Shown here: positions 5,033 through 48,404 of the stretch, piece after piece | Layout of the letters: each line of letters begins with the position of its first letter | Numbering within the stretch: the stretch's first letter is position 1 | DNA from: Candidatus Tantalella remota | Lineage (GTDB): Bacteria; Omnitrophota; Gorgyraeia; Tantalellales; Tantalellaceae | Direction: 5' to 3' | Length of the DNA: 49,371 nucleotides | Assembly (NCBI GenBank): GCA_030765685.1 | Contig: JAVCCB010000063.1 | Span: 1 to 49,371 of the forward strand | The notes under the pieces: generated by a model | Told to the model about the DNA's origin: nothing | Seen by the model: the letters and a program-made list of their open reading frames with translations, nothing else | The model's database searches: none | Program-made: the position numbers and the translations under genes

Positions 5033-5089
5033 AAAGTAAAAAGTAAAAAGGATAAAGGAAAAAAGAAAGGTTTCTTGTTGGATATACAG
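5033..5089 (+). repeat. 57-bp repeat, inverted copy at 38962-39018
   Basis: The first part is heptad-structured (GTAAAAA and GGATAAA type units) and the second is not. The complete 57 bases are identical to the reverse complement of 38962-39018. Confidence 0.85.
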
Positions 5090-5102
5090 GCCCTCCTAGT
5101 TA

Positions 5103-5179
5103 CTTCTTCCCTTTTCCTTTAACTGGTATCTGATGACTGGTCACTGATCACTGGTCACTGATTACAGTGTACAGTGACC
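5103..5179. repeat. Degenerate heptanucleotide array (11 units)
   Basis: Eleven consecutive 7-base units share one register. They pass from a CCTTTTC type to a TGGTCAC/TGATCAC type and end in AGTGTAC-like units. Nothing coding is seen between 5006 and 5252. Confidence 0.85.
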
Positions 5180-7424: not shown

Positions 7425-7640
7425 ATGTGCAAAGGCATTATATCAGCAGTACTCATACTTGGTATCCTGATGGCCTGTTCCACCGCTTTCGCGGATGACG
7501 AGTATATGACCGATTCCGGAGAGATAGGGGAAGTCTCTGATGGTGAGATAATGACCGATTCCGGACAGCTGGAAGAAGTCGGTGATGCCGGTGAGTATAT
7601 GACGGATTCTGGAGAGATCCGGGATACGTCTAGTTTATAG
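7425..7640 (+). CDS. Small exported acidic repeat protein
   Basis: The 71-residue product starts behind a CGGAGGT ribosome binding site. A signal peptide (about 1-23, AFA before DDE) is followed by a mature part of about 48 residues. It consists mainly of three copies of an acidic unit spaced 15-18 residues apart: EYMTDSGEI, EIMTDSGQL, EYMTDSGEI. The unit has no Cys and is strongly negative, so calcium or surface binding is possible but unproven. The gene has its own promoter and lies between two heptad arrays. No family recognised. Confidence 0.68.
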   Translation: MCKGIISAVLILGILMACSTAFADDEYMTDSGEIGEVSDGEIMTDSGQLEEVGDAGEYMTDSGEIRDTSSL

Positions 7641-7719: not shown

Positions 7720-8001
7720 ATGGCTAAAGCATCAGCTCGCCACATTCTGGTGGCATCAAAAGAGACCTGTGAAGAACTTAAGTCCCGCATTGAGTCGGGA
7801 GATGATTTTGCAAAGATAGCCGCTGAGCATTCCCAGTGTCCGTCGGGCAAAGAGGGAGGCGCTCTCGGAGAGTTTTCTCCCGGACAAATGGTGTCGGAAT
7901 TTGACCAGGTAGTTTTCAGCGCGGAAGTCGGGAAGGTCCACGGCCCTGTAAAAACGGATTTTGGTTATCATCTTATAGAGATCACGGATAGGGCAGATTA
8001 G
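7720..8001 (+). CDS. ppiC: Parvulin-type peptidyl-prolyl isomerase
   Basis: The 93-residue product is one parvulin domain, which catalyses cis-trans isomerisation of prolyl bonds. Family motifs are present: ARHILV near the N-terminus, GDDFAKIAAEHSQCPS, GGALGEFSPGQMVSEFD in the centre and FGYHLIEI at the end. There is no signal peptide, so it should act in the cytoplasm, like E. coli PpiC. A GAAAGGA stretch lies upstream of the ATG within the tail of a heptad array. A second array starts right at the stop codon. Confidence 0.94.
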   Translation: MAKASARHILVASKETCEELKSRIESGDDFAKIAAEHSQCPSGKEGGALGEFSPGQMVSEFDQVVFSAEVGKVHGPVKTDFGYHLIEITDRAD

Positions 8002-8106
8002 GTCTTAGGTCTTGGGTGTTAGGACGCAACCCAAGACCCAATACCAAGGAGCCAAGACTTGGTCCTGATATCTGAGATCTACGATCTGTGATCTGTCATC
8101 TGTATT
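8002..8106. repeat. Degenerate heptanucleotide array (15 units), partly palindromic
   Basis: Fifteen 7-base units in unbroken register start at the base after the ppiC stop. The unit family changes at least three times: a GTCTTGG type, then its complement CCCAAGA, then a CTGTGAT type. GTCTTGGGT at 8009-8017 and ACCCAAGAC at 8029-8037 are perfect inverted copies. Confidence 0.88.
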
Positions 8107-12455: not shown

Positions 12456-12539
12456 AGTTAGTAGTTAGTAGTTGGTAGTTAGTAGAGTTCATGATCCAAA
12501 CTATGAACAACCAACTACGAACTACCAACTAACGATGTG
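12456..12539. repeat. Degenerate heptanucleotide array (12 units), palindromic
   Basis: Twelve 7-base units start three bases after the stop codon. AGTTAGT/AGTTGGT units on the left become CAACTAC/GAACTAC units on the right. AGTTGGTAGTT at 12470-12480 is perfectly inverted at 12520-12530. Confidence 0.88.
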
Positions 12540-13926: not shown

Positions 13927-13989
13927 GATGCTGGATTCTAGATTATCGTAAGAGCTTTTACGAGTATCCAGAATCTAGTATCTAGAATC
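13927..13989. repeat. Degenerate heptanucleotide array (9 units), palindromic
   Basis: Nine units of GATTCTA/TAGAATC type share one register between ruvC and ruvA. GATTCTAGAT at 13934-13943 is inverted at 13980-13989, with an inner TCGTAA/TTACGA pair, so the whole stretch folds into one hairpin. Confidence 0.85.
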
Positions 13990-14015
13990 AAAAATAGCGT
14001 TTGCCGAGGAGAAAT

Positions 14016-38961: not shown

Positions 38962-39018
38962 CTGTATATCCAACAAGAAACCTTTCTTTTTTCCTTTATC
39001 CTTTTTACTTTTTACTTT
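38962..39018 (-). repeat. 57-bp repeat, inverted copy of 5033-5089
   Basis: The reverse complement of this stretch is identical to 5033-5089 over 57 bases. It ends four bases before the start codon of the 39023 gene, so the pyrimidine-rich heptads (CTTTTTA type) stand where a ribosome binding site is expected. Confidence 0.87.
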
Positions 39019-39022
39019 TACT

Positions 39023-48178: not shown

Positions 48179-48248
48179 GTGACCGGTAAACTGTGAACGG
48201 TGAACTGTATTGAGTACCGGGTATCGAGTACCGGGTATCGGGTTATCG
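48179..48248. repeat. Degenerate heptanucleotide array (10 units)
   Basis: Ten units in register (GTGAACG, GTACCGG, GTATCGA types) form the third near-copy of the block seen at 38459 and 47923. Between 48249 and 48355 there is an imperfect inverted repeat but no gene. Confidence 0.87.
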
Positions 48249-48355
48249 GGGGCAGTTTTCAGGAATACGTTGTAGGGTTACGGCTATCGAATCGTCTGTC
48301 GTTGAACGGTTACGGTTCAGCCCCAACCGGAAACCCTTTAACGATTCCAAAGACG

Positions 48356-48404
48356 TAACCGATTAACGATATACTAAATACTATATACTGAATACTACAT
48401 ACTA
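48356..48404. repeat. Degenerate heptanucleotide array (7 units) before a start codon
   Basis: Units of AATACTA/TATACTG type run in register to two bases before the ATG at 48407, leaving no room for a ribosome binding site. Confidence 0.8.

Follow-up and report, generated by a model that had tools for sequence, protein, structure and literature searches.

A composite of dispersed heptanucleotide hairpin repeats in the gap downstream of ppiC in an Omnitrophota genome

In Xanthomonas, GGGAATC heptads lie close to the end of the upstream ORF (28 nt on average) and are few between divergent genes (Rehm et al. 2015, PMC4692102). Between 70 and 75 sites per Xanthomonas genome are inverted pairs in a fixed convergent orientation, and the arrays vary between sister species (PMC4692102). 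As cited in that paper, the STRR of heterocystous cyanobacteria are short tandem heptanucleotides, three of which were reported for Calothrix. The same paper cites an over-representation of heptameric repeats in bacteria, for which the size of polymerase slippage was proposed as the cause. In the Beggiatoaceae, the heptad TAACTGA forms hundreds of intergenic arrays that are patchy among relatives (MacGregor 2015, PMC4679880). Geobacter metallireducens carries dispersed elements of 3–5 tandem 7- or 8-mers, and some classes are paired on opposite strands (PMC2700814). REPs are described as palindromes of 20–40 bp (PMC3733652).

Here we describe a heptad array of 105 bp at positions 8002–8106 of the window, the whole stretch of 49,371 nucleotides that was analysed. 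It comes from contig 59 of a 2.03-Mb metagenome-assembled genome of the Omnitrophota (G000).

The array between ppiC and the DUF2062 gene

The array is flanked by ppiC and by the gene of a DUF2062 membrane protein. The features of the window that are used below are the following.

7720..8001, + strand: ppiC-type parvulin peptidyl-prolyl isomerase, 93 aa (PF00639/PF13616), the upstream flank; its TAG ends at 8001
8002..8028, + strand: block 1, left arm of the F1 hairpin, GTCTTAG GTCTTGG GTGTTAG and a partial unit; 17 paralogous matches in 0.59 Mb of the same genome
8029..8064, − strand: block 2, right arm of the F1 hairpin, complementary units ACCCAAGACC...; 8 paralogous matches
8065..8106, − strand: block 3, right arm of family F11, ATCTGAGATCTACGATCTG...; matches L048 and L040
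8149..8685, + strand: DUF2062/TIGR03546-like membrane protein, the downstream flank (PF09835 above the cut-off)
12456..12531, no strand assigned: a further heptad hairpin with this architecture, AGTTAGT...ACCAACT, located between EF-G and yebC
13927..13995, no strand assigned: heptad hairpin of family F3, GATGCTGG...CCAGAATC, in the ruvC-ruvA gap, used in the orthologous-gap comparison

The best NCBIfam match of the ppiC product is PRK15441 PpiC, under the cut-off. The downstream protein matches TIGR03546 weakly (73.5 bits, cut-off 79.45), and its nearest named match, from an Omnitrophica bacterium, has 66% identity. At 7425–7640 the window encodes a small predicted secreted protein of 71 aa, within which the motif (Y/I)MTDSG(E/Q) occurs three times, and this protein has no match in Pfam or NCBIfam.

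A first-pass annotation of the window had read the sequence after ppiC as 15 heptads, and the period of 7 is real. The identity at lag 7 is 0.592, compared with 0.245 ± 0.044 for dinucleotide shuffles (z = 8, 0 of 20,000 shuffles), and further peaks are present at lags 14 and 21. Each block is also significantly periodic when taken alone, with p = 5e-5 for 8002–8029, p = 0.003 for 8030–8064, and p < 5e-5 for 8065–8106. The array had been placed on the base after the ppiC stop codon. The stop codon does end at 8001, but the starting point is not sharp because the periodicity extends into the stop codon, and the array found by TRF spans 7998–8023. Three unit types are present as had been described, but they are separated by two changes, and a third is obtained only if a single CTTGGTC at 8058 is counted.

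The units had further been taken to stay in register, with no base gained or lost, and this part could not be upheld. Heptads on either side of the switches match at 2/7, 2/7, 0/7, and 2/7 bases, as counted from the heptads of 8002–8106, where chance gives about 1.75/7. The register therefore follows from the choice of frame and was not itself observed. Eight paralogous F1 hairpins differ in the phase at which the complementary arm follows the first one (1, 1, 2, 1, 4, 2, 0, and 1), and a single gap cannot decide the matter.

Within the F1 hairpin, positions 8001–8017 pair with 8029–8045 in inverted orientation around an 11-nt loop, and block 2 terminates in a short palindrome, CCAAGACTTGG. 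Block 3 matches L048 at 88.6% over 35 nt and L040 at 81.6% over 38 nt. Both F11 arms are found in L040 and L048; the left arm, AGATNNCAGAT, is absent from the ppiC-DUF2062 gap. Because blocks 1 and 2 are F1 arms and block 3 is an F11 right arm, the gap is a composite of two repeat families. This agrees with the patchwork of separate additions that had been proposed, in that blocks 1–2 and block 3 belong to different families and each family is present elsewhere in the genome.

Heptad arrays and hairpins across the genome

Each of the three blocks has matches at other places in the sampled genome, 17 for block 1, 8 for block 2, and 7 for block 3, and shuffled blocks and flanking controls gave zero matches in the same sample. 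The F1 layout, in which GTCTTRG units are followed by a loop and then by CYAAGAC units, is invariant in its order across the paralogs. The F1 double-unit pattern has 78 matches in the genome, compared with 7 for the reversed control pattern. The order of the F1 units is also non-random: GTCTTAG is followed by GTCTTGG nine times, the reverse order was tallied twice, and GTCTTAG-GTCTTAG never. Two F1 copies, L127 and L038, have sequence in common past the limits of the array.

Simple expansion followed by point mutation cannot put a unit beside its own reverse complement, as the first-pass annotation had pointed out, and a strand switch at this site had been suggested instead. Fold-back copying local to 8002–8106 could account for the inversion with its 11-nt loop, and inverted heptads with no loop at all occur in G000, G144, and G096. 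However, the pair with GTCTTRG first and CYAAGAC second is found at several other G000 loci, which makes one local event unnecessary, and random inversion would not predict a fixed polarity. A local switch is thus very unlikely, and the inverted layout is probably older than the copy at 8002–8106, since the same pair occurs in the same order at those other loci.

The fixed polarity extends to other hairpins. Among related hairpins within a genome, 77 pairs have the same polarity and 10 the opposite, all ten of them in G000; the ratio of 77:10 is descriptive, given that the pairs lack independence. Local inverted pairing was observed in 24% of the array zones of G000 compared with 8% when half of the zone was replaced by sequence from a different zone within the genome. 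The corresponding values are 62% and 5% for G003 and 54% and 6% for G026, and G108 has no excess over the swapped-half control. Among the hairpins listed, the loop or core is between 0 and about 90 nt long. In G013 (L224), four hairpins contain a single GC-rich core, CGCCGAAGGCGG..CCGCCTTCGGCG, with heptad families that differ by locus, and in G006 a single heptad family surrounds different cores.

In 596 kb of G000 there are 162 arrays of period 7 (about 27 per 100 kb), almost all of them intergenic. The other periods from 4 to 17 are represented by 0–17 arrays each, save for the double period 14 with 99, and 50 kb of Escherichia coli used as a control contained zero period-7 arrays. Over about 600 kb of G000, identity at lag 7 is 0.320 in gaps, with a background of about 0.26 and 0.248 in coding sequence, and the gaps also peak at lags 14 and 21. 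The recurring units of the genome belong to at least a dozen families, for example GTCTTRG, GTRAACN, GATNCTR, GTAYCGR, GGAATWG, AGTATTY, CAAATGACAAAATC, ACGCTAD, and AGATNNC. Arrays lie near the preceding stop codon, and 35 of 172 begin no more than 7 nt from it.

Several other repeats were observed along the way. A long and well conserved array with more than 25 GGGAGCA-type units, at L032 10352–10560, looks recent relative to other arrays. AAAAGGA-type heptad arms surround the conserved core TTTCTTGTTGRATAT(A/C)CAGGC in a dispersed element that occurs in the window at 5033–5132 and 38965–39019 and in L036, L037, L044, and L061. A MITE-like dispersed repeat of about 150–190 bp with inverted ends GGTTACG...CGTAACC is present at 48230–48380 of the window, at L061 9182–9414 and L053 5630–5936, and in L044, L039, and L028, with 72–95% identity between gaps.

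Arrays are found in 94 of 259 tandem gaps, 7 of 13 convergent gaps, and 4 of 13 divergent gaps. Heptads could be bound, as DNA or RNA, by a protein that recognises 7-nt units, as was proposed for TAACTGA of the Beggiatoaceae (PMC4679880), and the strong unit periodicity and the genome-specific words would suit such a role. The gap counts for convergent and divergent genes show no promoter-side preference, however, and G000 combines a dozen or more unrelated unit families, and we find a binding array extremely unlikely.

Outside G000, most of the hairpins examined sit between tandem genes, and heptad inversions might be kept by selection as transcript hairpins between co-directional genes, acting as 3′-end stabilisers, terminators, or attenuators. 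The sense RNA of the ppiC-DUF2062 gap folds with −39.3 kcal/mol (z = −2.87) into a long G·U-rich helix of block 1 with block 3. Across genomes, the sense strands of 71 hairpins in tandem gaps contain G·U and A·C mismatches in a ratio of 237:168 (sign-flip p = 0.002). Strand-biased C-to-T change would also produce such a bias, however, and gaps that contain no array are equally biased in sense-strand folding (−2.70 against −2.03 kcal/mol per 100 nt), so the folding bias is not specific to the arrays. The antisense strand of the gap folds equally well (−39.8), and a T-run follows 8 of 155 arrays in the sense direction and 9 of 155 in the antisense direction, without sense enrichment. The gap contains no site of the intrinsic terminator type, with a GC-rich stem and an immediate T-run, and no match to the Rfam covariance models of known structured RNAs. 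The element is also missing from the orthologous gaps of several relatives. A selected RNA stem-loop is, on this evidence, unlikely. A translation-stop cassette was rejected separately, as stop codons within heptads are not enriched (396 observed, 415 expected).

We consider that 8002–8106 is probably a composite, now decayed, of heptad-hairpin repeats that are dispersed and directional and that would have been shaped by copying and by slippage in steps of 7 nt. This reading rests on the intergenic period of 7 across the genome, the recurrence of the three blocks, the local excess of inverted pairing, the fixed polarity, and the gain or lack of heptads with different units in orthologous gaps. 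On this view the gap contains an F1 element, with GTCTTRG units, loop, and CYAAGAC units, and after it an F11 right arm with ATCTGNN units. Such elements are short 7-bp tandem arrays laid out as inverted arms, and they would have spread within the genome as multi-unit blocks of fixed polarity. Their unit number would be altered by 7-nt slippage, and the inverted layout may come from fold-back copying with one arm templating the other. The arrays would be retained almost solely between genes because a 7-bp change within a gene causes a frameshift. Slippage alone leaves the dominance of 7 unexplained. The analysis gave no evidence of a cellular function for the copy at 8002–8106.

REPs are linked to RAYT transposases, and a MITE- or REP-like element with heptad terminal inverted repeats might similarly be moved in trans, for example by a Y1/RAYT enzyme. 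The fixed polarity, the recurring blocks, and the common flanks of some copies would be in line with transposition, G000 contains dispersed composite repeats of 150–300 bp, and two Y1_Tnp proteins are encoded there. Nevertheless, heptad density shows no correlation with the number of Y1 proteins (Spearman 0.13, p = 0.49), and the heptad-rich G026 has zero Y1_Tnp. The core or loop length is variable, and no target-site duplication and no close-range pair of an empty and a filled site was seen among the genomes compared, which lie outside the same genus. The ends of the elements are ragged. Transposition of this kind appears improbable. A telomerase-like reverse transcriptase was discarded as a source, with zero RVT_1 matches in G000. 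The lack of a target-site duplication and of an empty and filled pair among these genomes also counts against the copied and slipped composite that we prefer, and so do two further observations. Heptad density is tracked neither by Y1 transposases nor by reverse transcriptases, and the varying cores per unit family in G006, together with the one core with several families in G013, are unlike a simple copied element.

Orthologous gaps and the origin of the repeats

The first-pass annotation had pointed to the ppiC-TIGR03546 gap for comparison with related genomes. No clear ppiC ortholog was found upstream of the DUF2062/TIGR03546-like gene in the relatives examined, and a contig scan for the ppiC-DUF2062 gap returned two relatives only. 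The comparison was made at the yebC-ruvC and ruvC-ruvA gaps instead, on the basis of the yebC-ruvC-ruvA genes of the window; yebC adjoins ruvC in most relatives.

The yebC-ruvC gap measures 0–23 nt in G018, G004, G001, G016, and G011. Here G006 carries 141 nt, with TTAGGTG/CCTATGA arms round a core, and G013 carries 124 nt round a GC-rich core. G007 has 69 nt (CGTTTAT/ATAAACG) and G002 has 91 nt (ATAGTCC/GGACTAT), and heptads are present in this gap in other genomes too. For the ruvC-ruvA gap, a like pattern is seen in G000, G001, G006, and G017, where the flanks are direct and not inverted in G006 and G017. Over both gaps, the heptad inserts measure about 50–190 nt and mostly form inverted arms, with units that differ by genome. 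A long gap is not always heptad DNA, as the 174-nt yebC-ruvC gap of G017 is not periodic. The inserts with different words stand beside short gaps in relatives, and thus the same orthologous site has been filled repeatedly with different words.

Heptad density in the stretches sampled lies between 0 and 57 per 100 kb, and heptad-rich and heptad-poor genomes occur within one family. Low counts are uncertain because many samples cover only 4–20 kb, and the densities of G006, G026, G096, G108, G138, and G144 are biased upward because these genomes were sampled around F1 matches. Arrays of period 8 are also above background in G026, G144, and G108 (9, 7, and 3), where period 7 is dominant.

A different origin for the inserts would be an undescribed process in the Omnitrophota that writes inverted pairs of 7-nt repeats at intergenic sites, with a lineage-specific set of words. 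As an example, both 3′ ends of a break could be extended with the same 7-nt word and then joined. If true, such a process would account for the fixed polarity, the variable cores, and the independent gains in one gap, and we hold it to be distinctly unlikely.

SbcCD cleaves DNA hairpins, so that an apparent absence of SbcD may let inverted repeats persist. None of 59 Omnitrophota genomes has an SbcD match (TIGR00619) above the cut-off, and three have weak partial matches; among 14 control genomes, 8 are above the cut-off and 13 have some match. The heptad-poor relatives are likewise under the cut-off, so SbcD absence may be a permissive factor at most, and loss of SbcCD was rejected as the cause. 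The SbcC model is uninformative, as one control genome alone passes its cut-off. MutS loss was also rejected: both G000 and the heptad-free G011 have MutS, which by inspection does not track density.

Relation to known heptad repeats

The composite copies at 8002–8106 can be compared with several described systems. Period 7 is dominant, the arrays are mainly intergenic, and a unit family is dispersed over many loci, as in repeats of the STRR and Xanthomonas type; the inverted pairs of fixed polarity correspond to the Xanthomonas subtype. The units GTCTTRG and ATCTGNN are neither GGGAATC nor a known STRR word, and therefore the array lies outside those named families.

The closest precedent is the GGGAATC heptads of Xanthomonas, which are likewise intergenic and built of degenerate 7-bp units (Rehm et al. 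2015, PMC4692102). Xanthomonas has one G-rich family, which has been discussed in terms of G-quadruplexes, whereas G000 has at least a dozen families, most of them not G4-like. The STRR belong to cyanobacteria, and an inverted-arm architecture is not part of the account of them given in PMC4692102. TAACTGA is a single word that occurs in 169 direct sets and 1 indirect set, mostly immediately upstream of start codons, unlike the arrays of G000 (PMC4679880). The families of G. metallireducens are well conserved and were proposed to be sites of a global regulator (PMC2700814), whereas the Omnitrophota units are degenerate and genome-specific. With REPs and BIMEs the heptad elements share the form of many-copy dispersed intergenic palindromes; they differ in their 7-bp periodicity, their variable cores, and the missing link to Y1 counts.

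No description of the multi-family form, or of independent gains in orthologous gaps, was found for the Omnitrophota in the open-access literature, and both appear to be undescribed in this phylum. Hundreds of blocks like 8002–8106 are expected in G000, and the hairpins of relatives use different 7-letter words. The array is therefore a clear example of a little-understood repeat class and not a one-off event. The questions that this class addresses are why the unit is 7 and why the arms are inverted. One clade holds heptad-rich and heptad-free relatives, many unit families per genome, and independent inserts with different words in orthologous gaps, and these side-by-side contrasts make the origin of heptads directly testable by comparison of close strains.
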